From Bolinopsis microptera (lineage: Eukaryota; Ctenophora; Tentaculata; Lobata; Bolinopsidae), in NCBI RefSeq assembly GCF_026151205.1, contig NC_087078.1:14465118-14529117 (forward strand): 64,000 nucleotides of DNA, given 5' to 3'. Below are positions 18,175 to 64,000 of the stretch, in pieces; position 1 is the first letter of the stretch; each line of letters begins with the position of its first letter. Made by a program: the position numbers and the translations under genes. The notes under the pieces are model-generated. The model ran no database searches. It saw nothing but the letters and a program-made list of their open reading frames with translations, and was not told the DNA's origin.

Positions 18175-19115
18175 CTAATCTGGCCAGACTGTATCGGCAG
18201 CCCAGAGGTACTTGATCAGTTTGGCCTTAAAAGTAGAAATCCGCTCTGACTGCCGGATACATACTGGTAGACTATTCCATTTCAGCATAGATCTATGAAA
18301 AAAGCTATTTCGGAGGGCATCCGAGCAGGGCACAGTGGTACTCATGTAAGTTGAAGTATCCGACATATCAATTATTTGAGCATTGTGCCTAGTGTATCGG
18401 GTGCCCTCTGGACGGCATAGGACTATATATGTAGGGAGCGAAACTGGAATTATGCTATTCAATATTTTATAGAAGGTCATAAGATCGTTATAAATAAACT
18501 TCTGTTCAACAGGGAGAATATTTAGTTTCTTTTGCTCTGTAGCAAGTTTATCGTCATTATAACTGGAGTAAGGTTCACCATTGATCCATTTAATAGCCCT
18601 CTTTTGGATAGCAACAAACTGTTGAAGATGAGTTGCAGATTGAGGGGACCATATGACAGAACAATGTTCAAATATAGACCTAATTAACGCTAAATAGAAC
18701 GATCTTTTCTGCCTTTTATCAGTAGTGAAATGACATGTTCTCTTAAGTAGTCCAAGTCTAGAGGTAGCTTTGGAAACAAGCGCTTTACATTGTGCACCCC
18801 AATTAAACCTGGAGTTTATTGCGACTCCTAAATCTGACTGAGAGGGCACAAAGTCAATATCACTTCCAGAAAGTTTATAAAAGAAGGTATTGAATGGCAA
18901 GTTATCCAGCACGTTTCTTTGCAGGGACACAAAGAGGGCTTTGCACTTATGTGGGTGGAACTTCATTCGATTTCTCACTGACCAATCATATAATCTGTTG
19001 ATGTTATTTTGGATTATGTGATGGTCAGGGTAACCAAGGATCTCCCTCCAAATTTTAGTGTCATCTGCATAAAGTGCGATATTGGTGCCTTCAGAGACAC
19101 AGGAGAACATGTCAT
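18175..19115 (-). mobile_element. Non-LTR retrotransposon (CR1/Jockey-like), 5'-truncated RT C-terminus
   Basis: A single open frame of 311 aa encodes the last part of a reverse transcriptase: NIALYADDTKIW holds the catalytic YADD box, followed by FHPHKCKALFVS, the thumb region and the LINE C-terminal module (RSFYLALIRSIFEHCSVIWS, KRAIKWI, SFFHRSMLKWNSLP). It is truncated just upstream of the YADD box at about 19115, the usual outcome of incomplete target-primed reverse transcription. The frame is intact and so probably a fairly young copy. It is related to the 58.9-62.3 kb element (shared KRAIKWI, PVSLP and LKWNSLP-type motifs) but not identical. Confidence 0.9.
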
Positions 19116-19360
19116 TTATAAATATTCAGAATAAAACAAATATTATCAGAATAAAACAAAGGAGTGTTATAAAGTTGTTGTACTCTATAAGTGTATATTC
19201 ACCTACAAGCATAACTGCTTGGCGTGATGAGGTACATCTTTGATTGGTCGAAGGTCTTTCAACAACACAGCATCATCATTTTCATAGTAGTCCCCGGCTT
19301 ATGACGGGTTCATAGCGGTATTAAACATGTTTTTCTGGGCCCAAACATTCTACGCTCCTA

Positions 19361-20710
19361 CTATGCTATTACTGGTCTCTTGACTAACTCCCAATCATCT
19401 GTCCATATGGTAGTGTTTCTGGACAAATAGATGGTATACGATGCCCTCAGGCTGATCTCAGCGATCTTCATGCAGGCCTTCTTCTTCTCTTTGTTCTTTA
19501 CGTTCAGGTGGTTCATAAATGTTGGGAGGCTATAGTTGTAAATGCCTCGAGCTCCCACTTCTACTGTCTGGAGCTTGCAAGCCCATCCGTTGGCTTCTAT
19601 CTCTTCTGTCAGCTGCTGATATCTCTTCATCTTTCGCTTCTCTTGATCAGCAAAGTTCTGCTCATTTCCACAAGTCAGCTCCATTAGATAAACCTTCTTT
19701 GCTTTATCTGAATAGATCACTACATCAGGTCTTAGTGGTGTAGCTGCAATGTGCTGCGGGAAGTTCCTCTGTCTCTCATCCTCATCAAATATTATCTTCC
19801 AGTCGTTGGCATCTGAAAAGAAATATCTTTGGGTCTTATGATGAGTTGGGTCAGCTAAGGTAACCTTCTCGCGCTTATTGCCTGCCTTGTGAAAGACCGA
19901 CGGTGCCCTCTTCGATTCCTTGGCGATGTCGGAATTAAACTCGTCAATCTGTGATGAAACAGTCTTCATGATTTCACGTAGGACCTGATCATGGCGCCAG
20001 TTGAAACGTCCCTGTCTTAGTGCAACCTTGCAGAACGTGAGGATATGATTAAGTGTCCCTTGTTTGCTGCAGAGTTTACAGTTTCCTGAAACGGCTTTAT
20101 TCCAAAGCTTTAGGTTGCTAGGTGTTGACGCAGTGTCATGGATAGCATTGACATGAAACTTTAACAGTTCCGGACTAAGTTGATAGATCAGGTTATTCCA
20201 CGTGGTGTCGAATGTCATTGTATTTTCCCATGTGAGAAAGAGGTTTTGCCGCTTTTTGTCAAAAAGTGAACAAATAAGTGTCTCTTCATCAAAGGTCCTC
20301 ACCATGTTGGTTAGCAGTTTCCTCTCTGATGTGTCCTCATATCTTGTCCCATAACCGAGGCCAGTTGTACCAACTGCAGGTTTTCCAACTAACTCTTGGA
20401 AGTAAAGTTGGCGCTGACGGTCTTTCAGCTCTTTGGGATAAGACCACATCTTCTGTGTGTCTGCAATAGCCTTATGGTTAGAGTACACTTTTTTTGATGT
20501 AGGGGTCACTAGAGTTACAAAGTTGGTGTCCCTTAATAAGTTGGATGACTTTGTACTCAGTGCAGATGTTTTTCAGCTGCAATCCTTTCTGGTCTCTACT
20601 CCTGTAGAGGACGGTGGTGGTGCAAGGATGCGCAATCCCTAGCCACTTCTTAAGGTATCTGTTACACAGTGCCTCAAGCTCTCTCACAAATGTGATGGGT
20701 AGGTTATATT
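19361..20710 (-). mobile_element. R2/NeSL-type LINE C-terminus with CCHC knuckle and restriction-like endonuclease
   Basis: The main frame (382 aa) follows, in order: a linker; the zinc knuckle CKLCSKQGTLNHILTFC (Cys-x2-Cys...His-x4-Cys); and a PD-(D/E)xK-type core RPDVVIYSDKAKKVYLMELT, the arrangement of the C-terminal restriction-like endonuclease of R2, R4 and NeSL LINEs. Upstream, 20478-20710 in another frame encodes ELEALCNRYLKKWLGIAHP, typical of the end of the RT domain in this group. The two frames are separated by a one-base slip in an A7 run near 20490-20497, so the copy is broken. The 5' part (fingers and palm) is missing. Such endonucleases usually give site-specific insertion; the flanks here are other LINEs, so the native target cannot be read. 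Confidence 0.85.
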
Positions 20711-21069
20711 CAAATCTCTTTATTCAACAATATTAAATCATTATAGAACCTAATTTGTGGCTTGATCGTTATGTTAGGGCTATTCTGTTAGCTGATGCTG
20801 ACAGGCACTGCATGGGGCAGAGACTTAGGACCATTACGCTGGAGGCTTACAATGACCCTTTTTGAACCCCATGGCAGTGCTAGTTTTATTATGGTACAAA
20901 TTGTAAATCGAAGTTATGAAAACGATCAAGTCACTCCTGTTTTACACTATCAACAGCTACTTAAAACAACCTAGATTGTTTCAACTCACTTTGAAGATTA
21001 AACTGTTAAGTGATGAGTGATTGGGCTCATTAAACATTTTAGTAGCGGAGACATGCGGATCAGCTTCTT

Positions 21070-23150
21070 GAGGTTCTAATAGTTCATTCAGACAAGAAGT
21101 TTTATTTTTTCAAATTTAGTCGTTCAAGCTGCCTGAGTTCAGAAAGTTTGCCAAAGGGGCCCAGGTATTCTTGTCACCTTTACCCTGAGACGAGAGAATG
21201 ACTTTTTTTACCTTTGATTTGAATACACCATGAGTGATTTCAAGGTCGTTCAGTGCCAACATCTGACGGAATGAATTCCAAAGGCAACTAGATTTGTAAA
21301 CGAAACTGTTTGAGGGCATGGTTGTTATAAGAAGAGTTTCTTTGCCGGGTCTTTTAGACAAACAGAAAAGTTCAAATAGTGCAATTGGTGTTCGATATTT
21401 AAAGACTTTAAAAAGTTCATTGCAGCAGTGATACGCGTATAAATTATGCAATGTCATGAGTGATTGACGGGCAAAAATTGGCTTGGTGTGCTCTCTCTCA
21501 AAGAATTTGCTAGTAAGTTTCTGTTCACTGATAGGTCTAGTCCTAGCACATGTCATAAATTTATCAAGGTATGCTTTTTTGTCACCAAACATGATACGAA
21601 CACACTTTTTCTGGGCTACAAATAGTGGTTGAAGTTTATTATTACTTGCACCTCCCCAAACGGTAATGCCATAAGATAGGTGACTTTCAAAAAGTGTGTG
21701 GTACAGGTCCTAATGGATAGATGATGGAATTTTATCCTTAATCATGTATAGCCTCCCAGAACAGGACGAGAGTTTTCTAACTAGTTTCTCTCTATAGGGA
21801 TTAAAAGTTAGGCCTTCGTCGACAATTACTCCCAGGAATTTCGTTTCCTGCACCTTTGAGAGAGGTAGGCCGTTGAGGTAAAGTCTATTTTCAATTAATA
21901 AAGATTGATCATCAAGTTTTCTTTTAGCTGTATTGAATTCTATGTAGCAACTTTTCTTGGCGTTAACATGTAATTTATTAGCCAATGTGTACTCGTGGAC
22001 TGATCGTAGGACCCTATTTGCATTATTGTAGGCCTCAGCTCTAGTTTTGGCAACTACAAATATGTTTGTATCATCAGCAAATAGGACATAGCTAGTGTTA
22101 TCGAGTTGAGAGTTTGTTAAGTCATTTATGTATATTAAAAACAGGAGAGGCCCAAGGCAGCTCCCCTGTGGAACGCCATAGAGAACAGGAAGTCTGTCTG
22201 ATACTTCGCCCAGGACGGACACACAAAAATATTCTTTAATTTACTTAAAATGAGGTCATGCGAAACGCTATCAAAAGCTTTCGCAAAATCAAAATATATT
22301 ATATCAGTCCTGGACCTGTTATTCAATGCAAGTGCAAGATTGTCCGTGAAAGGTATCATTTGGGTTGTGCATGAACGTTCATGAACAAAACCGAGTTGTC
22401 GGTCATCCAACAGATCAGAACATGCAGCGTATAATGCAGTCTTTATGCACCTTTCAAAGACTTTCATTACAAGAGATGTTAACGAGATAGGCCTGTAGTT
22501 CTCAACCGAAGACTTATCGCCCTTTTTGTGCACTGGTACTACAAGTGCCAGCTTCCAATCAGGGGGTATGCATCCGCTCGAGAAAGACAGGTTAAATAAA
22601 ACACTAAGTGGGTATGCAAGGCTTTGGGCACAGTTTTTGAGGACTCTCCCATGAATCCCATCAGGGCCAGGGGCCTTGTTAGGATTTAACTTTTTAAGAA
22701 TCAACAGAACATCTTCTCTACTAAACACAAGACTTGAAAAACAATCATCACGAAAATCTATGCCAATGCCATAATCGCTCTCTTGAGAAAACTGCTCATA
22801 AAAATATTCGTTAAAAAGGGCAGCTTGATCAGATGGATTGTTTCGAAAGCGATTATGATATTTGACAGTTTCAGGGATCCTGGTTGACTTTGATTTAGAT
22901 TTAACGTAGGTCCAGAATTTCTTGGAGATAAGAGCATCATCGGAGTCATCCTCAACACTGAGTCTCATTCTTTCGTCCATCAAATTTTTAAATTTTGTAC
23001 GAAATGCACGAAACTTTTGTTTATGAGACTCAGAGTTGCTCCCCTTATGCCTTATTCTCCATTTCTCCTTATTTCGTAGGAGACGATCACAGTCGGAGTC
23101 ATACCATGGGGGCTGGAACTGAGACTTAATGGTCTTTTTAGTCTTAGTAA
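21070..23150 (-). mobile_element. CR1/Jockey-like LINE, 5'-truncated and degenerate
   Basis: Pieces read from right to left: SQFQPPWYDSDCDRLL (about 23110), a linker, then 22983-22135 with the RT fingers (NPNKAPGPDGIHG, VVPVHKKGDKSSVENYRPIS, YFDFAKAFDSVSHDL). The frame changes at about 22220 with loss of some sequence, continuing GVPQGSCLGPLLFLIYINDL and the catalytic YVLFADDTN. An in-frame stop at 21710 interrupts the thumb (KIPSSIH), after which coding resumes (DLYHTLFESHLSYGITVW) to a stop at 21116. The endonuclease domain is missing. At least one frameshift/deletion and one stop make it inactive. Confidence 0.88.
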
Positions 23151-23489
23151 TATAAAAATTATCTATATAATTTACATAATCTCCGGGGAGACAGAGGGGC
23201 GAGAAAGAACTTTGTCAATGTAGACAGTTTAGATTTGAACTTGGAGCCGCAAGGCCAAGAGTGATTTTCAAAATATTGAATTTTTGAAGGGTTATTTTTA
23301 TATAGGGTCATTGTGACATTATGTGTATACTGTTTGAAACAATTTATTATAAAATGTATTCCAAAGGCTGATAACATGCTCTGATAAAAAATTATTTGAC
23401 AACCTTTTAATATTTCTATCGTTATTGCAGGATTTCAGAACTTCTTTTCCTTTTAATTGATTATCATTTCGATGTGTAATTTAATCATT

Positions 23490-31647: not shown

Positions 31648-34600
31648 ATGGACCCAGTGCTAATTATAGCTATAGTATTAGCTGTAGTTCTCATCCTAGT
31701 CATATTCGTCCTTATAATGTGCTGGAAACTAAGAAATCGCAAACACGACTCTACCAAGTAAGTTGTTGTGTAATTACAGTATAATTGCTGTGTAATTACT
31801 GTGTAAATAACTGTAATGATAACTGTGTTTTTTATGCTGTTGACTTTATTTTTTATACATATCAGATGTCCTTTAATTAAGCAGACGAATTGCACTTGAT
31901 ATTGTTCGGTATATTATTGTAAGAACTGTCAAGGAGCTTTCGAAACCATCGTAAGTTTTATGTGCTCGTGACAACTACTTTCAACTACTTCTAATCTTGT
32001 AATGATATTTATCACTGGTCACTGTATTGTCCCAGGTCACATACAACAGTAATTAAATGGTAATCATATAATTAGTATAATTATACGCCTTCATGTAGTT
32101 ACCAGTGCCACAGTACAGAAACTAGTCTGATATTTTGTAATTTAATACGTCTGGCTACATTGTTGTGAAATGTGGTATATTGTTTCACAAAGCAGCAGGT
32201 GCATATTATAGTATGATCCAGGGTCCGAATTGTTTACTTACATGCCATGGAATGTGTGCTTTTGATCCACATAGGATATGGTGATGTTTTCAGATCTATT
32301 TGATATGAAAACGAGATACCTTGATTCTTAATTCTTCTGCACTAATTAATTTCCCCTTAGTGCGGAAAGTTAAACTATATTTTTTCCTCCAATTGTAAAT
32401 CGTTATGAGAATATAACATATTCTAATAATAATGGCTAATGTATGCTGCTAACATAACCATTATCTGAGTATCAGTTTGAAACTTGTAACTGATATGGTT
32501 ATTGCTGGTTAGTGGTTACACGAACGGTTTAGCCTTAATATTGTTTAGTTAAGAGCATGTCCCAGCAATAGACCGATCCATAGCATTCATTTTGTGTTTA
32601 CATCGAGATATTAATCTGCGGTCAGCGGTAATATTGTCTGATCCAGATAATGTATGATATGTCATGTGCGCGCGGCTCGAAAGGCCTAAATTGTCAGCAT
32701 ACATTTTGTTTATACATGATGAAAGTTGTTATTGTCAATCATTAGTGAATGCGCGCATAACAAACGCGCGTTAGGTCGAGGAACCGAAATTAATCATCAT
32801 CGCATTCCTGAGTGTCCTGATATTAGGTCCCACTGGAATTATGGAATGTGTAATAGAATGTATAAAACATAATACCCCACAATTCCAGCGGAGGAGGAAA
32901 CATTGTGCTAACTAACCCCAATCCCGATGTTGAAGGAGTTAATTCAGACAGAGTCGCTATGTCAAAGTCAAAACTCATATCAGATCCTTTCATGCTGAGT
33001 AAGTACTTGTCAGTATTTGCCGTTCTGTCAGTTTTACTGTCTTACCTGCACAGTTGCATCGCAGTGCAAGCTCAGATTTCAATCTACCTTCAATGAATAG
33101 TATAGCGATCATTAGTTATGTTCATAAATAGGCGAACTGATTTATTTACAGATAGATTATTTGAGATAAGCTGTCTAATTGTACGAGTACATCTTTTAAC
33201 GATGAAAAGTTATGCTAAAATGGTAAAATAGTAAAATAGAAGAACAAAGTTTCAAGTATTTGTAAAATTTTAACTTGTTATCACTCGCAGATGCTGGTAA
33301 TTTATTGAAAGGGGAAGAGAAGCGAAAGTTTGACGAGATTGCTCAAAACTTGCAAGACGAGCGTTTTAAATTCCTTGTTATTTTGAACGCACTCAGAAGA
33401 GACGCAAAACCTTTGAGTGCTGATACCGAAGCCTTTTATACGTACAGGTGCGACTTAATTAATCTCTATTTGACTTGCATTTTTTATTTCTATTGATAAG
33501 ACTGCAGAAAATTCCAGAAATATTCCCTATGGAATAAAGTAAGTCTGGATTTATCATCAACTTCTCCGCAGGGAATGTATACACGAGTTATCGCGGTTCT
33601 TACACCTACTCAACAAATCACCGGAGGGCATTGTGCCGGACGATGGACTGTATCTAGCCAACTGGGCTACACAAATACTCGCCATCTACGACAACCAACG
33701 TCGGGTTAGTAAACTCAGTTACCTATTTTCCGTTGTTTTTATGCCGGTGGTGCAGCTTAAAGTACTTTCTAAAGATTAGCTAAAATGATGAATATGTCAA
33801 TTCCTACTTACTTTATCCGTTGTTTAATAACTAATCATCCCGACTAGATAATAGCGATACCGTACAGTCAGCTAGACATGGAAATAGAGGAAGCAGCCGA
33901 GTGTTTCCCTATCCAGCAGCTCCGTTCAAGTATGCGAGCACGTCGCTCTTCTATTGGTAGTAGTGAGGGCAGCTCTATTAACGATAGTGCTATTCGTGTA
34001 GATGTAAGTCTTAACTACTTTTTACTTTTACCGATCACTATTCAACCAAATAATTATGTTTTTTAAATGTTTTATATTAGACGAATTAATCTAAGCTCAA
34101 AACTGGATCGGCTCCGTATAAAAAACTGTAAGTCTATTTTTGGCATGTGTTTTCTTCAAATTCATCTCTACAGTTAAATGGTTTAGATGACCATTTTTAT
34201 TTTTGCATTAAAGTTACGAAGTCAAAGCATATCTCATTTTTACAAAACAAATATTTATCCCCAGTTGGAGAGTGAGGACGAGGAAGAGGAAATGAGGACG
34301 TCTTCTCAGCACCATACTACATCTTACGATGACGATGTGAGTTGAAACATCAGTTTTACTTTCCTTTTCTGTTTTTAAAGTGTTTACTTGTAGTATTGGG
34401 GGGGGGGGGGGGTGTCACGTCCGTCTATGTCCGCTTGTCTCATAGAATCCAAAAAGGACAGGACATAGGCGGACATAGGCGGACATAGACGGACATAGGC
34501 GGACATAGGCGGACATAGACGGACATAGGCGGACATAGGCGGACATTAATGGACACCTAAATTGCTAAATAAAATGTTCATTTTTTGCTGTTATAGGGGG

Positions 34601-37600
34601 ATCATGTTTTTTGTCCGTTCGGTACCCTATATTTTCAAAACGGACAAAAAATAGAGCGGACAAAAACGGAAAAAAATGGACAAAAACGGACAAAAATGGA
34701 AATAACATTTAGATGCTTCCTCCTCCTACTCTTCCTCCTCCTCCTCCTGGGTCTTCCTGATCTTCCTCAGTCCTCTTCCTCCTCCCCTCCTCAGTCCTCC
34801 TCCTACTCCTCCTCCTCGTCCTCAGTTCTCCTCATCAGTCCTCAACAGTCCTCCTCCCCAGTCCTCCTCCTCCTCCTGAGTCCTCCTCCTGGGTCCTCCT
34901 CCTGGGTCCTCCTCCTCCTCTTCCTCCTGGGTCCTTAGTCCTCCTCAGTCCTCCTCCTCATCCTTCTCCTCAGTCCTCTATCCTCCTCCTCAGTCCTCTC
35001 CCAGTCCCCATCCTCCTCCTCCTATTCAGTCCTCCTCCTCCTCCTCAGTCCTCCTTCTTCTCAGTCCTCCTCAGTCCTCCTCCTCCTCCTCCTCCTCCTG
35101 AGTCCTCCTCCTCCTCCTCCTCCTCTTCTCTCTCAGTCATCCTCCTCAGCCATCCTCCTCAGTCCTCCTCCTCCTGGGTCCTCCTCCTCCTCTTCATCCT
35201 CCTCCTCTTCCTCCTGGGTCCTCAGTCCTCCTCCTCCTGGGTCCTCCTCTTCATCCTTCTCATCAGTCCTCCTCCTCCCCAGTCCTCTCCCAGTCCCCCT
35301 CCTTCTCCTCCTCCTATTCAGTCCTCCTCCTCCTCCTCCTCCTCCTCCTCAGTTCTCCTCAGTCCTCCTTCTCATTTCTCCTAAGTCCTCCTCCTGAGTC
35401 CTCTTCCTCCTGAGTCCTCCTCCTGAGTCCTCATCCTCCTCCCTCTCAGTCATCCTTCTCAGTCATCCTCCTCAGCCATCCTCCCCGGCCCCAGCCATCC
35501 TCCTCAGCCATCCTCCTCAGTCCTCCTCCTTCTCAGTCCTCCTCAGTCCTCCTCCTCCTCCTCCTCCTGAGTCCTCCTCCTCCTCCTCCTCTTGCATCTC
35601 AGTCATCCTCCTCAGCCATCCTCCTCAGTCCTCCTCAGTCCTCCTCCTCCTGGGTCCTCCTCCTCCTCTTCCTCCTCGGTCCTCAGTCCTCCTCCTCTTG
35701 GGTCCTCCTCTTCATCCTTCTCATCAGTCTTCCTCCTCCCCAGTCCTCTCCCAGTCCCCCTCCTTCTCCTCCTCCTATTCAGTCCTCCTCCTCCTCCTCC
35801 TCCTCCTCCTCAGTTCTCCTCAGTCCTCCTTCTCATTTCTCCTAAGTCCTCCCCCTGAGTCCTCCTCCTCCTCCTCTTCCTCCTGAGTCCTCCTCCTGAG
35901 TCCTCCTCCTCCTCCCTCTCAGTCATCCTCCTCAGTCATCCTCCTCAGCCATCCTCCCCAGTCATCCTCCTCAGCCATCCTCCTCAGTCCTCCTCCTCCT
36001 CCTGGGTCCTCCTCCTCCTCCTCCTCCTGGGTCCTCCTGGGTCTTCCTGATCCTCCCCAGTCCTCTTCCCCCTCCCCTCCTCAGTCCTCCTCATCAGTCC
36101 TCAACAGTTCTCAACAGTTCTCCTCCTCTTCCTGATCCTCTCAGTCATCCTCCTCAGCCATCCTCCTCAGCCATCCTCCTCAGCCATCCTCCTCAGTACT
36201 CTTCAGTACTCTCCAGTCCTCAAAATGTTTGTCCGCTAATGTCCACCAATGTCCGCTAATGTCCACCAATGTCCGTCCAAGTCCGCCAATGTCCGTCCGG
36301 GTCCGCCAATGTCCGTCCGAGTCCGCCAATGTCCGTCCGAGTCCGCCAATGTCCGTCCGAGTCCGCCAATGTCCGTCCGTGTCCGCCAATGTCCCAAAAA
36401 ACACGTCCGTTGTCTCATAGAATCCAAAAAGGACAGGACATAGGCGGACATAGACGGACATGACACCCCCCCCCCCCCCCAGTATTTCAAATGTCAAAAT
36501 GAATAGAATACCATAATACATGTTTCTATCTAGTATCTATTTATTTTGAACAATTTGTGTGGGAGAAATTGAGAGATATGGAAAAGTTGAGACAGGCACT
36601 GCTGTATCTATTCACGTGTAAAGCCAATGCTTGTCCTGTGTCCATACTATACTGAATTATAGTTGAAGGTTATTGAAATAAAATTGAAACGAAATTCAGA
36701 ATGAATTAAATTGTTGAACTATACTATATACGATGTATGGGGGAATTTTTACAGATAAAGAAACCTAAAATCCAAATTCCAAATACCGAAAAACGTTTCA
36801 ACTTTTAAAAATGCAGTGAACATATTTTTATCACGTCATTACGATTCACTTAACAAAGTTAAGTCTCCACTAGGACCCATGTTCGTGTTGATTTCTGATT
36901 TACTCCTATTTGTGATAAAACTTGAAATGTCGTATGAAGCGCTCCGTAACAGTCGATCCGACGAAGTCCTCTGAAATGTTGTTAGTTGTATTACCAAATT
37001 TATAAAAATTTGTTAATTCAAATTTAAACATTGCACATAGAGAGTAAATTGATCATGCCATGTGCAAACCTACCTAAGATATCCCATCCATGGCGGAGAC
37101 TGTTTACCATATCCTGCGTCAGCGGTTTGTTCAGAAATGGACTTGTGAATAGAATATCCTATCTGCTCGACTCATTATCACACCCGACATCTATCTCTGT
37201 AACATTTCCGGATCTCTCCTCAAGGAGGAAGTCACTCCATTTCAAATACCTTGTTCGGCCATATCTCAATTCAACTTCGGAGCAAATTCCTCCGTCCTTC
37301 ATTTCTTTTATCTCCACTCCCGTCAGTTCTTTGCTGAACACATTTATTTTAAACATTTCTCCTCCGAATGCATTACCATCCTCAAAACCCCCTCCAAAAC
37401 TATCAAATTCGTTTCCAAGGACCATGTAGCCATCAATTGGTAGTTTTTTGCCCGATGCGGTTTCTTTGGTGCCTATTAATTCACCCTCGTAGTAGAACCT
37501 GAATGCCCTAGAAGACAGGGACCACGAAACACAGAGATGTCTCCATTCCCCTAGAGGTGCAGTTATTTTACTCCTCATGTCCAATCCTGCGTTGAAGATA

Positions 37601-41618: not shown

Positions 41619-42028
41619 GGGGTCGTTCACATATTACGTAATCAACCGAGGGGGGTTTCCAAATGCTTACGGTTGATTATAATAACAATTTGACAATATG
41701 TTAATTCAAATTCCAATTTCATTATGATAGTGATAAAATTTAGAATTGATCGGATATCCACTATAGCATCCACTATAGCAACTAGCAAGTAGTTTGAAAG
41801 GTGCTTGGCCGGATATCATAACAATGATTTCGGCTCATCATGCAATGATCAGGGTAGCATGAAACGTAAAGAAAAATGATTTCCAGGGAAAAAAGTCAAA
41901 GGGGGGGGGGGGGGTCAGGCCTTGATTACGTAATATTGCTGTCAGGGGGGGGGGTGGGTCTTGATTACGGAGGGGGGGAGGGGGTAAAAATTGCTAAAAT
42001 ATTGATTACGTAATATGTGAACGACCCC
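41619..42028. mobile_element. PIF/Harbinger-type MITE with TAA target duplication
   Basis: A 410-bp element with matching 27-bp termini (GGGGTCGTTCACATATTACG TAATCAA and complement), flanked by TAA at 41616-41618 and 42029-42031. The interior is G-rich (runs of 14 and 9 G) and non-coding. It interrupts a copy of the 80-bp module found intact at 42731-42820 and 44204-44280, so the empty site is visible in the same window. A 3-bp TWA duplication is typical of PIF/Harbinger. Confidence 0.9.
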
Positions 42029-42109: not shown

Positions 42110-42354
42110 TTCGGAATCAGCGTGCGAAAATACATCGATCCAAGTTGGTCTCAGCTACTATCGCCGTATCGGGGGCCCTTTTAGAAAAATCTCTGAGATC
42201 GACTGTAGTCGATTTTCATTTAGCACGCTCGCGAGCGTGCTAAATCACTCTACAGTCGATCTTCGAATTGTTCTACATTCTATTTCTAGAAGGGCCCCAG
42301 ACAGTTTAGTTGAAACCAACTTCAATGGATGTATTTTCGGACGCTGATTCCGAA
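42110..42354. repeat. 245-bp imperfect palindrome (foldback) with a 28-bp perfect core
   Basis: The left arm starts ATTCGGAATCAGCGTGCGAA and is mirrored on the right by GGACGCTGATTCCGAAT. Nested inside are complementary GGGGGCCCTT...AAGGGCCCC segments and GATCGACTGTAG against CTACAGTCGATC. The centre, 42218-42245, is a perfect palindrome around GCACGCTCGCGAGCGTGC. Confidence 0.9.
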
Positions 42355-42830
42355 TCACCCACCATGACATAGGGTTAAAATACTCCCCTGACGAGATATT
42401 GGCGAAAAACTTGTCTAGCGCGATGCGTTACTGTGCCGCGCCGCGCACTCAACGAGGCTCCTCACAGCGCACTCAATGAGGCTTCTCACAGCGCCGAGCT
42501 GAGATGAATTGACATCGTCAATTAAGATGCGCACGAGTGCGCGGCTCCCCGTGTATCGTAAAAACTCTACAGGAGTTCACTATAGTGAAACGACGATATA
42601 GGGGTCACGACGTGATACAAGTGGTTGCTACACGTTGTATAATGTATACCTAGTTCTCGCGGCCGGCCGATCAAAAGGCATAATATAAGGGGTTGCAGTG
42701 TGTGTCAAGGCTTCACATAGCCATGTGTATATTACTGGGCCGCGCTCAGCCTGTCATTCCGCCTAATATATATATAATCTCTATGTTGTTTACCAACATT
42801 AAAGCCTGGGGTCCTCAGGTAATGTGTATA

Positions 42831-51258: not shown

Positions 51259-51264
51259 CTTTGA

Positions 51265-51821
51265 TCGGGGGATCATAAGGTCAGAATCGTACGTGACGTT
51301 GGGGGTGGGTCATATTTTCTTCCAAAACGCAGTTAGTACTTTTGTACTAAGTGGTCTGGGTGGGTCTGCTGCTCATTTCCCAGAAAAACAGTTAGTACAT
51401 GGTACACGGTAAGAGGGGTGTCCAACCCCAAAAAAACCCATTTTACCTCTAATTTCACTTTTGGGAATGGGTTTTGAGGTTTTTTCCTTTTTTTTGGGTT
51501 TTAAAAAAAATGTTTCCTTTTTTTGTAACTTTTTATCTAATTCGACTACATTGAAAACAAAACCCCTACTAAATAATGGGTATAATTTGCCCATTTCCCA
51601 ATTTTTAATGAGCTGTTTAAAAGTTTAAAGCAATGTATGGGTGGGTATCTTATTTTATATACCAAGACACAGTTAGTACCGTGATTTCTCAACAGTTAGT
51701 ACCGCAAAAGGGGTGGGTGTCCTAAGTATTATCCGAAGAAACAGTTAGTACCACCAAGGGGGTGGGTGGGTCTTTTTTGTACGTACGACACTTGGTACCT
51801 GATCCCCCCCCCCCCCCCCCG
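51265..51821. mobile_element. G-run/C-run-bounded element 2 (0.56 kb), 6-bp flanking repeat CTTTGA
   Basis: Starts TCGGGGGATCA and ends TGATCCC followed by a run of 17 C and a G; CTTTGA flanks it at 51259-51264 and 51822-51827. The arms are imperfect inverted repeats of about 30 bp, both reaching TCGTACGT(G/A). The interior repeats CAGTTAGTAC five times (near 51331, 51390, 51670, 51692 and 51740), each next to GGGTGGGT or similar. No protein is encoded. Confidence 0.65.
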
Positions 51822-51827
51822 CTTTGA

Positions 51828-53446
51828 GGAATACAAAAAAGGTATCAAATTTATGCAGATTTATGAAAATATCAACAAATCGACTTACTTGGTTTTCGAA
51901 AAAGCGAAAACTGAATAGTTGGGATGCAAGGTGACAGATAAGCTGATGAATATATTTCATGTGTACAGATAAAACTAGATTTCTTTATCTTTTGTTCAAT
52001 TATTATAGGCCCTTTTGATGGCTCTTAACTTGTAACAATTTAGTATCATAGTCACATGATATGATATGATATGGAATCACATATCATGGTGGAACTGTAA
52101 CTGGCAACTCACTAACAATTATGTCATGTGTCAATTAGGTTTCTGTGCTAGGAATTATGTATAGACCAACTAGGTTTCTGTTTCTCTATTTTATAAGATC
52201 TAGTAGGTGTTAAGAAGGTTTAGTTAATAATATTATGGTATTGATAGAGTAATTTTAGGTTATGTTACTATATTGATATCATTAAGATTATTTATTTAAT
52301 AATTTGATTTTCCCAGATTCAGACATAGTGACTCGAGTCGATATTACAATAGCTCAAAATTGTTTATATACTTTCATCTCTTACATACTGTAATCTTAAC
52401 ATTTTCAAGTGCATAGTGCCGAAATGATAGCATGGTGGCCAATGATTCTTCCAATTATTATGAAGATTCTTGGTATAAATCTTAGAATTTTGAGACTTTA
52501 TATGGCATAAATTTGAATATTAGTGAAGCTAAAGCAATACTGATCAAATTCTTCTTCTATACATAATTTATGCATCTTATAATCTTTATATCATAAAGAT
52601 CCAAGGAAAAATTAAGGCAGAAAACACCAGTTGGATAACTGAGTTTTATAACCCTTACAAGATTTCTGCCTATTAGTAAACTCAAAATGGCATAATGTCT
52701 ACCTTGATAACCTCGCTCTAGACTTTGATACAATGAATAGTTAGTGAAAGATTTTAGTGTCATAAATTGTAAGTTACTTGTTTTAACAAACCTCTGCAAT
52801 CGCGGAACCAAGTTCCTTTTTCCTCAACTTCAGAGCCGTTACCATGCTTCGTTGTCAGACTGGCACTGTATTATTTTGCGGATAAAAGCTGCTTATTATA
52901 GAAAGAAAGAACATTTGGTTTTTATTACTCACTACATACCGTGATTATTATTCCATGATCCAAAGATATTAAAGATGTTTAGAATTGTATGTTACTAACA
53001 AAGTTACCGATTATAATATGAATCCTGGAATACAAAAGGGAAATGCTTAAGTAGTTTACTCTTTATTTTGCATTTACTTGTAAATGTATTCTCTTGTTAG
53101 GTGTTTTATCATGATACCAGTCTATTCTTTGTCTCTTTTATAAGTAAATAAATTAATCTCTATAATTAATTAATTGGTTAAAGTCCAGGAGTTCCTTTAA
53201 ATCGATTAATTATTTCTGAAGCTAAATTTTATATTCTAACTTAATCAATTTGCACATGCATGATGCGAGACCTGAAAGTCAATAAATTTACAAAGTACCT
53301 AAGTCCTAAATATTATAAAGATAAATCATGTAATGTCGCCGAAAAGTTACTAGCACCTAAAGTAAAGCTGCTCAAAGTCTATTTTCAACATTGATGTCAT
53401 CTTTAAATGCATTTTAATCCTTCTTAAAATTTAAATTATACATACA
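51828..53446. other. Intergenic DNA, no gene recognised
   Basis: AT-rich with no motif-bearing frame. It ends at the 3' tail of an antisense RTE element. Confidence 0.45.
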
Positions 53447-54460
53447 TACATGTTACATGGCGAGATCTCCATCCAAAAGGATTAGTCTGCGTCATCTGCG
53501 TCATTACTTTGTATTATACAACTTCGGCGGGTAATATTTCTCCATCCTTTTCGATCTGCAGCCAATCTTCTCATACAATCAATCGTGAGTCCATTACGAT
53601 CCAATCTCTGCTCAGCATCTTCAATAAACACATCATTTAAGCTCTTCCTAGGCCTGCCTCTTGATCTCTTCCCATGCTTGGGTTTCCATTCAAGTAAATA
53701 GTTGGGCAACCGATCTTCAGGCATTCTACTGACATGTCCAAACCAACGCAGCCGTTTTGTTGTTATTATGTCAGCAAGGGCAGTTGTTGATGCCCTTCTT
53801 AAAACATCCTCATTACTTACTCGATGGAACCACCTCACTCTCAGGATTCTTCTTAAGCAGTACTGATGGAAAGACTCCAATCTTCTTGTCTGCACTTGAG
53901 TCGTGTTCCATATCTCACATCCATAGGTCAGAATGGTAAGAACAGCTGCGATGTAGATTCGCACTTTGTTGTTAATGCTTATGTTCTTATTCTTCCAAAT
54001 GTTGTTGAGTTGGTTAAAAGCTCCGGTTGCTTTTCCAATCCTGACACTTATTTCTTTATCAATCTTGCCATCTGATGTAATTTTGGCACCCAAATAAGTG
54101 AATTGAGTGACCTGCTTTGCAGAGTTTCCATCGACAGTTATATCTATGGTCCTATTCTCTGGGAGTGGGTGCTGCGATGTATCTTTCCCAATGACCATGA
54201 TCTCTGTTTTCTTTGCGTTCATCTTTAAACCCCCAAGTCCACAGTATTTCGCAATATTGTCCGTAGTTTCTTGCAGTCCTTCAACAGTGTCATCCATTCC
54301 TGCGATGTCATCAGCATAGTCAAGATCAATGACACATTTTTCCGGTTGTCTGGAACTTTGTCTGTACTGAAGTGTAAAACCACGGGATATATTCTTAAAC
54401 TTCTCTGCAAGTTCTAATCCCCAGTTAAGTACAAGATTAAAAATAGGGGGCCCTTGCACA
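53441..54460 (-). mobile_element. RTE-clade LINE, 5'-truncated with one long open frame
   Basis: An open frame of 325 aa carries the end of the RT palm and beyond: CVIDLDYADDIAGM (YADD box), LKMNAKKTEIMVIG, FTYLGAKITSDGKIDKEIS, LTYGCEIWNTTQ, LRRILRVRWFHRVSNEDVL, LRWFGHVSRMPEDRLPNYLL and GRPRKSLND. This order is typical of RTE elements. It is truncated at about 54460, just before the YADD box, at a QGPP in place of the usual QGDPLS. The 3' end (left side) carries TACATACATACATG, the same (ATGT)n tail as the fragment at 10.6 kb. Head-to-head with the EXD1-like gene, about 105 bp from its ATG. Confidence 0.9.
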
Positions 54461-54565
54461 TCACCTTTAAATTATACCCAACCTTCAAAGTTAATTAAGT
54501 TAGCTAATTAACAATGCCAGCTAATTAAGTTAATTAACAATGCCAGATAATGTAAGAGTGGCCCC

Positions 54566-57500: not shown

Positions 57501-60500
57501 TCAGACGGCATTTTTTTGTTGTAAGAAACTGGTATGACATGAACAATTTTTAGGGTTTTTAATATGTTCTTAAGATAACGAGCGTGGTTAACATAAACGA
57601 ACTCAGATTTATTTCGCTCAAATCTCATCTAAAATATGAATATCACAACATTTACTGGATACTTTAATTGTAACGTAATATATTCGACCAACCTTTCAAA
57701 TTAATATACCGTTTATAATAATGGGACCCATAATCGCTTAACGCTACATTCATCACCCGGTCACGTACGTCTTTCAGCCAGCTGCTCGCCAGAGTCTACA
57801 ATCAATAATAGGAAAATGCACTTTGCTTATTAGTGAATTGGCTCCATGTTCGTCACAGTTATTCTAATCGAACGAGATCCGACAATTGACTTGACAGTCA
57901 AGCACGAGAAAATGTGGAAGATCGGGTACTTCATAACAGGAACGCGCTTAGCCTTGAGACTAATTCAAATTTTCATTGTTATTGCCTGAACGTCTTTTTA
58001 ATGTGCGCTGCGCGCGCTGGTCACGTGATCAAAATAGAAGCAGTTCGGCTTTGTGTCGTTGAATGAAACTCGGGCGTTGCCGATGGAGAATGACGTCAGT
58101 ACATTAGCGAGGCTATGGTCGTTGCATCACAGAGGATACAACATAGTGAGGGACTGTGGATCATCGGGGAATAAAAAGTTAGTCTTGGCAAGATGTCCGC
58201 CGATAATTCTAGGAATCAGACTACGGAGAGAAATCTTTTCTCCGAAGAGAAATTGTTTCTCCATAATACAATATCGCATTCCCAACATCACTGACATGTA
58301 ACTTAAAACGAATGACCACAGCTTCCAATAATTAGCAAACTTTATTACAATGCATTTGCTGAGACATATGCGTTTTTTGGTTGAAGTACGTGATTTTGAT
58401 AATCTAGTAAAACAAAATCTTCCAAGGTACACGTTTCTGATTATTTCATAGATGCCATGTTTTTTTATTAAATACTTTTCAAATTTTACAGAGTACAGCA
58501 ATAGATGAATATAAAATAGAATCGTTCAAAATATCGCCCCCATCTGTAAAATATGATGGGCACCCAAACACGGTAAACACATAGTGAACTATGTCCGCAG
58601 TAACTTGGACCCATTACATCGAATCAATCTAAATCCAAAAATTTATGAAAAAACTATTTAATAACAAACAAATCCATGGTGAATAACTGTGGATATATAG
58701 TCAAAATTGGTATTTCAATACGTCAAATTCCAGATATAATACATTAGATACAGGTCTGATATGGTCATTAATGTGTGAGACGGTGTGCGGGTGAAGTGTG
58801 ATATGATGTTGAAAGTATAGGAAGGTAGATAAAAAAATTAATAAAACAAAAATAATAATAATATGGGGAGCAAAGAGACTAGGCTAGGCTGTTGTTTCAC
58901 TATCCAATAAACATTTCCATAGATGCTTAGTGACCTCAGCTTTGAAAAGACTAGTAGACACAATCTGTCTTACCTGTAAAGGGAGTCCATTCCACAGTAT
59001 ATGAGTTCTGTAGAAAAATGATTTTGCCAGTGGGCTATTTGAGGTACATAAGGTGTGTGAATTCTGACTTAACTTAGGTAAAATTGATGACACAATAGAC
59101 AGACTGTCGAGGTGGCAACGTCTTAGTCGAGAAGTCCCCTGATATAAAGAGAGATAGTGAGGCAGCGATACAGGAATTAAATTGTTCAGAACTTTGTGGA
59201 AAAAAATAAGATCATTCAAGTCAAACTTTTGAGACAAAGGGAGAATGTCGACAAGCTTGCACTTTTTGACATATTGCTCAGGTGGATAACTGCGGCCCTC
59301 TTCAGACAGAATCCATTTAATAGCTCTCTTTTGGAGACTTTCTAATTTATCACTAAGTGATTTATTACAATACAAGGGCGCCAGATTATGGAGCAATTTT
59401 CGAATTGGCTACGAACCAGGGAGAGGTAAAGCGCCCGGCGACGTTTCTGATCAATGACAATATGGCCATTTCTTCTGACCATACCAAGTTGTTGGCAGGC
59501 CTTAGTCAAAATTCTGTCGCACTGACTATTCCAACTTAGCTTAGGAGTAACATCGACTCCAAGATCTTTTTCTAACTCTACATACACAAGAGGAGAGCCA
59601 TCAAGATTATTATATGCGAATGGAGGAGATAAAGATGGTTTTCCTGAAACAATAAGCACTTTACATTTTGCTGGATGGAATCGCATTTTGTTTCTTAGTG
59701 CCCAGTCAGAGAGATAGTCTATATCCATTTGCAAATTAGTATTATCAGAAGATGAATGTATTTTACGCCAGATTTGTGTATCATCGGCATACAAAACAAT
59801 ATCAGTATTATCCGAAAGGCCAAGAGGAATATCATTGATAAACAATACAAAAAGTAAAGGACCAAGGATAGAGCCCTGGGGGACACCAGAATTAACTGAG
59901 AGGGTAGATGACATCTCATTACCAATAACCACTCTTTGGTAACGGCCTTGAATGTAATTGGTAAGAAATTTGAGAAGTGTACCACCCTATATGATTGAAT
60001 TACACTTCTTACCTGTAGCAATGCGAATCAAATTCAAGATAGCGTTACTGGTTTTCAAGTGCCTAAACGATTGTGCTCCTGAATATCTAAGGACAATGGT
60101 CAAAATTAGGGACACTAGTAAACATCATGTCAGAATGGACCATGACTTCTTCCTACTGGAACGCCCTCCTTTATCAAGGCTGAGGGCTACAGCTGGTGCT
60201 TTCTCTCACACTGCTCCTAAAATCTGGAATACACTTCCCTACTCACTACGCTCCATCTCTCGACTAGATGTTTTCAAGAAGGCTCTCAAGACCCATCTAT
60301 TTCATCAAGCCTATCCTGTATGTGCGAACAGTATTTTTGGTGATTCAGTAGTCATGGACGCAGGACTTTAAGATCAATCTACAATTTATAAATTTGAATT
60401 TTTGATTAGAAAAGGGACTACTAAGGTAAATTTATCTGCACCGCTTTGTTGGCCAGTATCAACTCCATTTTTTGGACTTTGGTCGCTTATACGGCCTAAG

Positions 60501-60517
60501 CGGTATACAAATAAAGC

Positions 60518-60552
<35 letters not shown>

Positions 60553-63500
60553 CAATGTTATATAAGGTCTTTAGCTTATGAAGAAGGATATCATGATTTA
60601 CAGAATCAAATGCCTTAGCAAAATCAAAATACACAACATGATTGATAATGTTTTCGTTAAGAGACAATGCCAGGCTATCACAAAAGTCAACCATATTGGT
60701 TGTGCATGACTTGTGCTCTAAAAAACCATGCTGTCTGGGATCAAGAAGGGTACTTGTCAAAGAAAGCAGTTTACGTTTAACAATGCGCTCAAAAACTTTC
60801 ATGACTAAACAAGTAAGGGATATTGGTCTATAGTTTTCAACCTCACTTTTCTTACCTTTCTTAAATATTGGGACAACATTTGCAAGTTTTCATTCTTGTG
60901 GAATGTAGCCGCTGTTGTAGGATCCACGAAAATGCATGTTAGAGGGTAAGCTAAACCTACGGAACAATTTTTTAGAATTTTACCGTGTATGCCATCTGGT
61001 CCCTGGGCTTTATTTGAATTAATATCTGAAAGAAGCTTACGAACATCCCGATGATCGAAGTCAATATCAAAATCAACATCATTGACATAGGAGATGTCAG
61101 TGTCAACTGTCATAAAGTGAAGGATCCGAAAACTGGTTATAAAAGAAAGAATTGAAAAGTTCAGCTTGATCTTTGGGTTTGAACCGAAGCTGTCCAGAAT
61201 AACTAACACAATTAGGAATACGGCAGGAGTTAGATTGATACTTAACATGTGACCAAAACTTCTTAGTTATAAGCGCTGGATCATCACTATTGAAAAGATT
61301 GTCTCTTATTTTGGCTGATGAAAGCCTCTTAAAATCTTTACGGCTAGTAACAAACTTTAACTCATCAGAAATAGAACCAGAAATTTTAAATTTAGCTCTG
61401 AGTCTATCTTTTTTACGGCATGAAGAAAAAAGTTCACTATCGAACCACGGGGGTTGGAACTCTGATTTAATAGTTACTTTAGGAATATGTATATCAACTA
61501 AATTCATAATGCAGTCTTTAACTAACTTCCAAGACGAATCAGGATCTAGGCATTCTAGGACTTGCCAATTAATCGAGCATAATTCACGCTTAATCATGTC
61601 CCAGTTTGCTTTCTTAAAATTATAGATTTTACGTTTAGGAGTTTTCTTACGGAAAAAGGAGCTTTTAATTAAAAAAGTGACAGGAAAATGATCAGATTTG
61701 CACACGGAATGAGGATCACAGACATTCAAGTTATCGATTGTGTTATCATAATTACTGAGAAGAAGGTCTAATGTATTACCACTTTTATGGGTGGGTGATG
61801 TGATCAACTGGGAGAGAGAAAGATCACTGAAAGAATCTATGAAGGATTGCTCGATAGGTACGGTACTGGATGAAGATAGCCAGTCTGTATGGGGAAGATT
61901 AAAATCACCAATAACATAGATTTTAGGGGGATTCTTTTTGGAAACTAGCTTGCGAATATAACTAACTATGACATCATGATTAGGTAACCCAAGAGTTCCT
62001 ACTATATAACAAGTACAGATTACAATACTCTCTTTGTTAGGAAAAGCAATTTTAACGGCAAGCATTTCGGCACCTAGGCTAACTGGTAGTCGGGTTGTAG
62101 TGGCGTCGAGATCAGACCGAACAGCCAAAAGAACACCACCTCCATTTTCCCTAAACTTTTTAGGGTTATTAGGATCTTGAGGATGAGTCTTTCTCGTGCG
62201 GTCATTGCGGAAGATTTCATATTTTGCGGAAGATTTCATATTTGTTCCGAGGAATTTAATTTCTATCAACTTCAGACGTTCACTACAGAGTGGTTGAGTC
62301 TATCCCAGACGCGATGGACGCTGCCCTGGAGTTGGCCAACTATCACAGTGTTTCCGTGTTGTGGGAAGGGTTTGATGTTAACAGGCATGGAGTTCTTACT
62401 TGGATCGTCTGTGGATATCTGTTAGTAGATCACCAGGTTTATTTGTTATAATAAATCATATTGCATCAACTATGTGCCATGGCCCATGATGTGTGCATCG
62501 TTTACCTCAGATCTATGGGATGGAAATTTGAAATCTTAAATAGATTTTCTGCATGGTGACACGGTTTCAACACGGTTTCAACATTGCATTGGTCAGTTGA
62601 ATTCACGCCTGGTGATTTGAAATTATTTTTTATAGTTTGTCCACTTTCAGAGGATCAGCGGTGCTTTTTAACATCCGCAAATTTGGAGCGAAAATATTTA
62701 CAGAAGGGGGCCTAAAAAGATTACTTGAAGCTCGTCACCCCATTAAGGTAACACTACTTGCTAATTTATATATTGTACGGTTTCTAAATATTAATAGGAC
62801 GAATTATAAGTCTAAACAAAATGCCAAAAAATGAAAATTAGGGGGGGGGGGGGGGGGGGGGGGGGGCCAACCATATTAAAGTATATTAAAGTATATCCCC
62901 GGGTCAAAATCGGAAAAAATCCTACATTTTAATATACTTTAATATACCTACAATTAGAAGATTTATATTCTTCGTTAAGATTTACATGATGAACTATATT
63001 TTTCACTCAGATTCGCAAGATAAGCCTGTTTTAGGACTAGTACATGAATTTCCATCCAGATTGGTCAAAAATTGGCTGAGCTATGAGCTTTAAAAAATAT
63101 GCCCATATTTGGGCATACGCTTTTGCCCAAATTCGCTTTTGCCCAAATTCGATAAAATTTCAATATTTTTTAATGAGACTAACTCTATGTGAAAGATATA
63201 ACTCAGTGTTTGTTGAATATAGTGGATACTAAGTAAAAAGACCTCCATGAACAAAATTGGGAAAATTGCACATAATATCTCGGTTCGGAATACTAGCCAA
63301 AATGACTTCATTAAAATTGAAATAACTCCATCAGTTTTCAATATTTTTTCAAGAACTTTTTGGAATCGATTAAGAATTGCATTTCAAGCTTATTTTGGGC
63401 AATAATTTTTGATGTAGGCCTCCAGGGAGATGGGAATATATTAAAGTATATTAAAGTATATTAAAGTATATTAAAGTATATCCCCGGGTCAAAATCGGGA

Positions 63501-64000
63501 AAAATCCTACATTTCAATATACTTTAATATGGTTGGCCCCCCCCCCCCCCCCCCCCCCCCAAATTACACACGTCCAAATAGGTGATTTGTTGATATTTGT
63601 TGATTGTGGAACCTCTGGCAACGCACCTTGCCTGGGTGTTTCCACCTTAGCCCATTCTTGTAAATCATATTGACAGAAATACCTGAACAGGTTATCCACG
63701 ATTGTAGCTGTCTGGCGGATATACTGTTTAACCAGTATGATGTAGAGCTTAGAGCAGGGAGTATTTTTGATACGCACGCTGCAGATCTTCTAATCCAGAG
63801 CAAGACATCACAGGAGCTGTACGTTATTATATGGATCTTGTTTTTTCTAACGAAAATGTTTTGAACAATTTCTTAGACGATATCAGGTTTTTGCACAGTG
63901 TGTTCTCTTACAGTTTCGCACGCAACTGCTCAACTGATGGCTAAAACTAAGCAAACATTTCACCCTCCACCACTCAGGACAGCTAAGACCTTGACAGAGT
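54566..64000 (+). CDS. EXD1: EXD1-like 3'-5' exonuclease-fold protein (piRNA pathway), partial at the right edge
   Basis: Mouse EXD1 is an RNA-binding adaptor in piRNA biogenesis with a DEDD exonuclease fold. Exons: 54566-54716, 54951-55011, 55678-55721, 62276-62420, 62651-62747, 63691-63818 and probably 63978 to beyond the window; all boundaries are AG/GT and phases match (1, 2, 1, 2, 0, 2). Residues 1-85 are basic and polar with no domain seen (EXD1 has an Lsm-like region there). From residue 87: VHYRVVESIPDAMDAALELA, VSVLWEGFDVNRHGVL, then GLKRLLEARHPIKVIHDC (HD motif at 169-170), LADILFNQYDV and SIFDTHAADLL (192-200), matching EXD1 KVIHDCRWLSD...VFDTQVADV. The catalytic DxE of motif I is replaced (VLWEG), as in the reported inactive EXD1. 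Intron 3 is 6.6 kb and holds an antisense LINE; intron 5 holds a G-run element. Confidence 0.82.
55722..58879 (+). other. Left half of EXD1-like intron 3
   Basis: Donor GTAAGT at 55722. It contains a three-copy 20-bp repeat (55851-55910). No gene is recognised; a frame at 58053-58301 has no family motif. Confidence 0.5.
55851..55910. repeat. 20-bp repeat, three perfect copies
   Basis: GTTTTTGCTCTGTGCTAGTA repeated three times head to tail in EXD1-like intron 3. Confidence 0.95.
58884..62269 (-). mobile_element. CR1/Jockey-like LINE (endonuclease + RT), 5'-truncated and interrupted
   Basis: The longest element in the window. Right to left: APE endonuclease (GGGVLLAVRSDL, VIGDFNLPHTDWL, SGNTLDLLLSNYD, CKSDHFPVTF) in a 388-aa frame at 62269-61103; linker FQPPWFDSELFSSCRKKDRL; RT fingers NKAQGPDGIHGKIL; then VVYFDFAKAFDSVNHDILLH at about 60600; and GVPQGSILGPLLFVLFINDI with IVLYADDTQIW (59932-59342); and the C-terminal module (KRAIKWILSEEGRSYPP, FYRTHILWNGLPLQVR) to the stop at 58884. 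Frameshifts occur near 61130-61240, 60840 and 59380. A 570-bp insertion splits the RT between KTLYNI and GGTLLKFLTNY. Only the first part of the endonuclease is lost. It is antisense in EXD1-like intron 3. Confidence 0.92.
59985..60555 (+). mobile_element. L2-like LINE 3' end with (ATT)n tail, inserted in another LINE
   Basis: Encodes IELHFLPVAMRIKFKIALLV, CLNDCAPEYL, LSRLRATAGAFSHTAPKIWN TLPYSLRS, DVFKKALKTHLF, the typical C-terminal end of L2-type LINEs, with a stop at about 60371. The element finishes GCGTT followed by about 12 ATT units (60517-60553), the microsatellite tail used by L2/CR1 elements. It is opposite in orientation to the surrounding element; removing it rejoins KTLYNI to GGTLLKFLTNYIQGRYQR in the host LINE. 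Confidence 0.88.
62841..63560. mobile_element. G-run/C-run-bounded element 3 (0.72 kb), 6-bp flanking repeat AAATTA
   Basis: Starts with 26 G followed by CCAACCATATTAAAGTATAT and ends with the complement TATACTTTAATATGGTTGG and a run of 24 C. AAATTA lies immediately outside on both sides (62835-62840, 63561-63566). Arms of about 110 bp contain TATTAAAG repeats and TCCCCGGGTCAAAATCGG in direct copies near each end. The centre has no coding frame. Located in EXD1-like intron 5 (62748-63690). Confidence 0.82.

Follow-up and report, generated by a model that had tools for sequence, protein, structure and literature searches.

Mobile elements with long terminal G and C runs in the genome of the ctenophore Bolinopsis microptera

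A stretch of 64,000 nucleotides from the ctenophore Bolinopsis microptera (NCBI RefSeq assembly GCF_026151205.1, contig NC_087078.1, positions 14,465,118 to 14,529,117 of the forward strand; 38.3% GC), here called the window, contains three elements that begin with a run of G and end with a run of C. A sequence-only reading had placed these elements, copies 1, 2 and 3, in one class of DNA transposon or foldback element with homopolymer termini and 6-bp target duplications. We find that copy 1 is a genuine inserted, once-mobile element, that copies 1 and 3 stand for two separate young families (families 1 and 3), and that copy 2 belongs to an older, separate family with 7-bp duplications (family 2). 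The features are as follows.

34392..34397, no strand: left 6-bp target duplication of copy 1, AGTATT
34398..34412, plus strand: G15 terminal run of copy 1
34413..34494, plus strand: left end module of copy 1, TGTCA and inverted arms of 10-bp GGACATAGRC subrepeats around a loop
34718..36201, no strand: interior of copy 1, CT-rich simple repeat (TCC/CAG) with low-complexity open frames
36401..36465, plus strand: right end module of copy 1, with loop TTGTCTCATAGAATCCAAAAAGGACAGGACATAGG oriented as in the left module, ending GACATGACA
36466..36480, plus strand: C15 terminal run of copy 1
36481..36486, no strand: right 6-bp target duplication of copy 1, AGTATT
51259..51828, plus strand: copy 2 with its flanking duplications: CTTTGAT, C-GGGGG (51266-51271) ... 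C17-G (51804-51821), CTTTGAG
62835..62840, no strand: left 6-bp target duplication of copy 3, AAATTA
62841..63560, plus strand: copy 3, comprising G26, a stem-loop module, the interior, a second module in direct orientation, and C24
63561..63566, no strand: right 6-bp target duplication of copy 3, AAATTA

Results

In copy 1 (34398-36480), G15 and C15 directly abut AGTATT on either side (34392-34397 and 36481-36486), and the arms are complementary over 54 nt (87%). This agrees with the sequence-only reading in all but the C run, which had been given as about 16. DNA searches covered the assembly (264.65 Mb, 232 contigs), in which the 331-base left end of copy 1 has at least 40 matches of 94–100% identity, itself included (the best 40 of 1536 candidates at first look); a family-1 end with a different continuation was found in one match only. 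Copy 3 has G26 at 62841-62866 and C24 at 63537-63560 between its AAATTA duplications, and its arms are complementary over 53 nt (94%). As a query, it gave at least 40 copies (the best 40 of 1324 candidates at first look), and the full-length matches listed, window copy aside, are 98–99% identical.

Flush duplication of constant length, as expected of a non-autonomous terminal inverted repeat transposon (miniature inverted-repeat transposable element, MITE), is found in family 3. Among 39 copies with both runs (the window copy and L013-L052, 41 copies in all, minus L041 and L048), the duplication is 6 bp in 27, 7 bp in five, 5 bp in four and absent in three. Flush matches of 5–7 bp are thus present in 36/39 true flank pairs, compared with matches of at least 5 bp in 23/1482 mispaired pairs, an excess over chance. 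The 27 sixmers have A at the first position in 93% and T at the last in 67%, with a symmetric consensus of roughly AAATTT. In L041, CTACCT flanks both sides, and a G24 run at one end is paired with only CC/CCC at the opposite end. In the family of copy 1, both ends are seen in 8 of 13 inspected copies, with a duplication of 6 bp in six and 5 bp in two, including L055, whose surroundings are A-rich; for the remaining five, the DNA inspected does not include both ends.

A paralogous empty site was found for one family-3 insertion (L006/L017). When its flanks are joined around one AAAACC, they align ungapped across the junction to L006:2925-3008 (85.7%; an unoccupied copy of the same repeat) and to L113:514-596 (78%). 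For this one insertion the junction falls at the run edges, as had been proposed for empty sites of these elements. L030 provides a second candidate, but its alignment to window 42231-42402 has gaps.

Exact family-3 ends carry a run of at least 6 in 246/267 cases; the 21 others, distinct ends that lack a run of 6, are a manual count from 34 listed rows. Sixteen of these were inspected, and 14 represent a long run broken by a few bases; the left end of L118 and L129 do not. Twenty unpaired family-3 ends, hand-picked from the first 100 listed, were inspected for internal sequence. Fifteen lead into the known interior (L158 across 298/341 bases), and the unpaired end L147 matches a 2-kb variant, L119. 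L141 and L149 have family-3-like ends followed by sequence that matches neither known interior, and could mark a rarer variant or parent. L142 and L159 have 28 bp of family-3 sequence in common and then diverge from it.

Two further features of family 3 were noted in passing. Three ends at G000:C5:6766343, 6768743 and 6771142, spaced by about 2.4 kb, mark an element-bearing tandem array, and the two elements inspected there have identical interiors. Near 455-1860 of L119, a second element with a G-rich start (GGGGGGGATGCAACG...CGTTGCATCCCC) is nested in the family-3 element, with AATATACC on either side; this is a further duplication length, 8 bp by eye.

Each end of a family-1 or family-3 element has a stem-loop module composed of tandem 10-bp subrepeats, GGACATAGRC in family 1 and TATTAAAGTA in family 3, and family 1 has TGTCA...TGACA immediately internal to the runs. 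When folded as single-stranded DNA, four of five modules perform far better than shuffled sequences (z -4.2 to -6.8). The hairpin of the left module of copy 1 (34413-34500) has a z of -6.8, with 0/200 shuffles folding equally well; the exception is the right module of copy 1, which has a weaker fold (z -1.9). In both families the module loops point in the same direction at the two ends, which differs from ordinary inverted repeats. In L122 a solo module of 85 bp is bordered by a G run and a C run, and AAATAA flanks it on either side; this is the product expected from recombination between two direct modules. The solo module and the direct loops had prompted the idea of a composite transposon, in which a pair of mobile modules, each about 85 bp long, would enclose DNA of any kind. 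A strict pattern found 0 solo modules in family 1, L122 is explicable by recombination, and the idea was rejected except as a component of the undescribed-group reading discussed below.

The interiors differ. Copy 1 contains CT-rich simple repeat, copy 3 short-frame sequence (longest open frame 97 aa), the family-3 variants L119 (2.0 kb) and L121 (1.4 kb) open frames of at most 116 and 81 aa, and one element of the copy-1 family (L011/L053) a long interspersed nuclear element (LINE). No mobility gene besides the LINE was recognised in the interiors read; a Pfam scan (E 0.01), which covered only three copy 1 frames, matched no family. Copy 1 seems incapable of autonomous movement.

Copy 2 ends in GGGGG (51267-51271) and C17 (51804-51820) and has no inverted arms of 14 nt or more. 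CTTTGA lies on both sides, not flush as in copies 1 and 3, with an extra C and G outside the runs. The flanks are more plausibly a 7-bp duplication carrying one mismatch (CTTTGAT/CTTTGAG) outside CGGGGG...CCCCG, because relatives carry sevenmers at the same place; the claim of 6-bp duplications at all three copies therefore stands for copies 1 and 3 only. The longer matches to copy 2 are 78–92% identical. Many copies share flanks and are therefore not independent (L008, L009, L063-L067 and L072-L074 were taken as one insertion). Among ten independent insertions judged by eye, the sevenmers are perfect in four (L068, L069, L074, L076), have one mismatch in four (the window copy, L070, L075, L077) and are absent from two (L071, L078), counts that are softer than those for families 1 and 3 because the sevenmers are read outside CGGG...CCCG with up to 2 bases of freedom.

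Run length is highly variable in family 3 (G 8–38, C 8–30), with a left/right correlation within copies of r 0.10. It has no significant relation to divergence from the consensus (Spearman 0.17 and 0.05, n=44; 44/60 loci used, 16 dropped), and the scatter is already as large in the youngest half. L021 and L052 have identical interiors at different target sites and runs of 30/15 versus 12/9. L013 and L025 sit in a tandem array; their interiors and 65 bp of flank are identical, yet their runs measure 38/26 versus 21/17, and the shared-flank duplicates L161 and L162 have G15 versus G12; the differences within these two pairs point to length change after insertion. Run lengths that are unrelated to age and differ between duplicates fit fast slippage.

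Long G tracts are common in this genome of 38% GC, with 841 exact G21 runs versus 116 exact A21 runs. Twenty G21 sites (every fifth of 100 listed) were judged by eye, and five of these end inverted-repeat elements. One belongs to family 1 (L084). Three form another run-ended family, in which TTAA flanks L090 and no duplication was recognised in L096 and L098. The fifth, L093, has the 5/6-bp flank TGTAC or CTGTAC. Among the other 15 sites, L082 has a C10 run 232 bases away with no matching arms or duplication, and in L091 the G run lies within a longer inverted repeat; the remainder comprise tandem arrays, G tracts embedded in other repeats, and sites where no mate run was seen. The sample indicates that a G/C pair alone does not predict a 6-bp duplication; families do.

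Some of these repeats deserve separate mention. The inverted ends of the L090/L096/L098 family include TTTTTTGTGAAACT-like sequence and have G/C-run termini. L085, L095 and L089 are satellite-like arrays whose units carry long G tracts (L085: CTAATAGTCATAGT-G(n)). At 41901-41978 of the window, a G14/G10/G7 cluster lies in a repeat with 'gattacgtaat' motifs and resembles L081, L087 and L092 by eye; this cluster implies that G tracts grow within repeats too, not exclusively at ends.

The window also contains remains of non-long terminal repeat (non-LTR) retrotransposons on the minus strand (61103-62299 and 53482-54471), which match the endonuclease domain Exo_endo_phos_2 (E 7e-14) and, weakly and under the curated cut-off, reverse transcriptase. 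Similar frames lie near 18175-23214 and 58884-60889. Long tandem arrays are found at 652-1861, 1947-2977 and 7029-7469, with units of 32, 64/129 and 11 bp.

Discussion

Copies 1 and 3 belong to repeated mobile units with flush duplications, one empty site and runs that change in length. We consider it quite probable that they are non-autonomous cut-and-paste DNA transposons of the MITE or foldback type, whose terminal G tracts have been expanded by slippage. The earlier proposal of a DNA-transposon or foldback group is thereby upheld for copies 1 and 3 as transposed elements with inverted arms and flush 6-bp duplications, and is not supported for a group defined by its homopolymers. Its statement that no known superfamily can be assigned still holds, no autonomous partner having been found.

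A transposase made elsewhere presumably binds the stem-loop and subterminal-repeat module at each end and, acting in trans by a cut-and-paste reaction that may be of the DDE type, would cleave where the terminal G/C tract meets the flanking DNA. Insertion would occur at staggered cuts about 6 bp apart, with a preference for AT-rich, roughly palindromic sites, and gap repair would leave the 6-bp duplication. The terminal G run (C at the other end) would constitute the outermost part of the inverted repeat; replication slippage, in a genome with many long poly-G tracts, would have lengthened this run and would keep it hypervariable. In family 2, an equivalent staggered cut of 7 bp may apply. The difference in duplication length points to two or more transposition systems, and the shared run architecture would therefore be convergent or genome-driven. 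Because the family of copy 2 and other sampled families also bear G-run ends, the G run is not in itself a mark of a superfamily, and the G/C runs look like a quirk of the genome rather than the badge of one class.

Several observations weigh against slippage-expanded MITE or foldback elements. The duplication length varies around 6 bp and is not strictly 6. No autonomous copy or transposase with family-1/3 ends was found among the sampled ends and the polB, hAT and Mutator-like element (MULE) loci, which were viewed as stretches rather than whole elements and with no rve search made. L142/L159 was considered as a parent element and rejected: extension shows shared flanks, marking the two as duplicates, and the shared part has no recognisable transposase. 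A single one of 88 measured family-3 runs is shorter than 8, so that the runs may arise at insertion or travel with the element. Kinship between copies is weakly reflected in G-run similarity (Mantel p 0.02) and not in that of C runs (p 0.83), which also allows some inheritance of the runs. Homopolymer lengths taken from the assembly include sequencing error. Finally, slippage alone would predict expansion of internal G/C tracts, and almost none is seen. An internal G5 is kept in 12/14 occurrences (G6 in two), and an internal C4G3 is unchanged in 105/117 and shorter in 12; these are occurrences, not independent copies (the family-1 window copy is also in L010). Two things are odd: the outer cut stays flush with the run despite varying run length, and internal tracts fail to expand. 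Either the edge of the run itself fixes the position of the cut, or the runs are rebuilt so fast that short stages almost never appear.

A more specific assignment, to non-autonomous IS3EU/GingerRoot or hAT6-like elements with expanded G tracts, is a tentative possibility. IS3EU/GingerRoot and hAT6 are both reported with 6-bp duplications, as in families 1 and 3, and hAT7 with 7-bp duplications, as in family 2 (PMC10045372; PMC12730594); for hAT6 and hAT7 the fit is by duplication length only. A further likeness to IS3EU/GingerRoot is the TGTCA...TGACA just inside the runs of family 1. However, the termini reported are TA..TA for IS3EU and mostly TA..TA, occasionally TG..CA, for GingerRoot (PMC10045372), not G runs, whereas the outermost bases here are G/C runs; no transposase was seen, with no rve search made. 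hAT domains are abundant in the genome (at least 150, the best 150 of 366 candidates), which would favour hAT6, yet no hAT gene lies beside such ends in the 17 loci viewed (six at about 3.2 kb around the domain, 11 at 0.85–2 kb downstream of it). Sixteen of these have no G/C run of 7 or more, and paired terminal runs are absent from all 17 in the stretches viewed; the G13 and G8 tracts of L105 have no mate run there. MULEs have target duplications of 8–11 bp, unlike the family-3 mode of 6 bp, and three MULE loci have no run of 6 or more.

It is unlikely that all three copies represent one new class of DNA transposon with homopolymer G/C ends by definition and a transposase that recognises the run. 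The runs at 246/267 exact family-3 ends, with most inspected exceptions being interrupted long runs, are in line with this view, as are the 6-bp duplications and the same odd end module common to families 1 and 3. Against it, copy 2 falls in a 7-bp class with different outer bases, and other run-ended elements with other flanks are present among the 20 G21 sites (L090 with TTAA on both sides, and L093). The original claim of a single class is therefore not supported. L041, with its G24 and CC/CCC, implies that long runs are not now required at both ends; its short side may have shrunk later.

Families 1 and 3 could also define an undescribed group, an unlikely proposition in our view. Cleavage would here be set by the homopolymer edge and not by a fixed distance from a binding site, the poly-C 3´ end (with its G-quadruplex-prone partner strand) would be recognised or remade at each insertion, and direct stem-loop modules would carry unrelated interiors.

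Derivation from Polinton/Maverick elements is highly improbable. These have 6-bp duplications and carry polB and an integrase, and polB is present in the genome (20 matches, 11 of which lie in open frames of 1245–1261 aa), but no G/C run of 6 or more is seen in 11.8 kb next to two polB loci, a region that includes the meeting point of the presumed ends. Chance pairing of G/C microsatellites, although G tracts are very common in the genome, is refuted for families 1 and 3 by the 36/39 flush duplications, the family-wide homology of interiors and the empty site, and can practically be dismissed.

As a separate observation, three places in the genome have Polinton-type polB genes arranged as inverted pairs: G000:C9:664900-671650 (L099), C9:6595755/6606125 and C7:6691702/6702995. 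In one pair, the DNA between forms a palindrome with 3222-bp arms that are 100% identical around a centre of about 303 bp. This may reflect real head-to-head copies or an assembly fold-back.

To return to the reading of copies 1 and 3 as MITE or foldback elements, the likeness to MITEs lies in a length that is short to 2 kb, inverted termini, near-constant flush duplications, high copy number and no transposase recognised inside. Unlike MITEs, they have outermost G/C runs of 8–38 nt and module loops that are direct rather than inverted. With foldback elements, such as FB of Drosophila, they share ends of short tandem subrepeats that make inverted arms. The FB elements have 9-bp duplications, unlike the 6-bp duplications, short 10-bp subrepeats and terminal homopolymers found here. 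Many dispersed long poly-G/poly-C tracts have been reported from the genomes of C. elegans and C. briggsae (PMC2211496); the tracts of B. microptera differ in being often at element ends, and the string 'transpos' has 0 matches in the text of that report. Among the papers listed by literature searches, as judged by title or the start of the abstract, nothing was found on poly-G-ended transposons, and no title concerned such transposons in ctenophores.

In conclusion, mobile elements with long, hypervariable, outermost G/C runs are documented in a ctenophore genome. Two phenomena are separated, namely transposition with 6-bp duplications and a genome-wide expansion of poly-G that also marks the ends of several element types. 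For annotators, this is a warning that G-run ends are unsuitable as a mark of a superfamily. It becomes directly testable how the cut made by a transposase can follow the edge of a run that changes in length.

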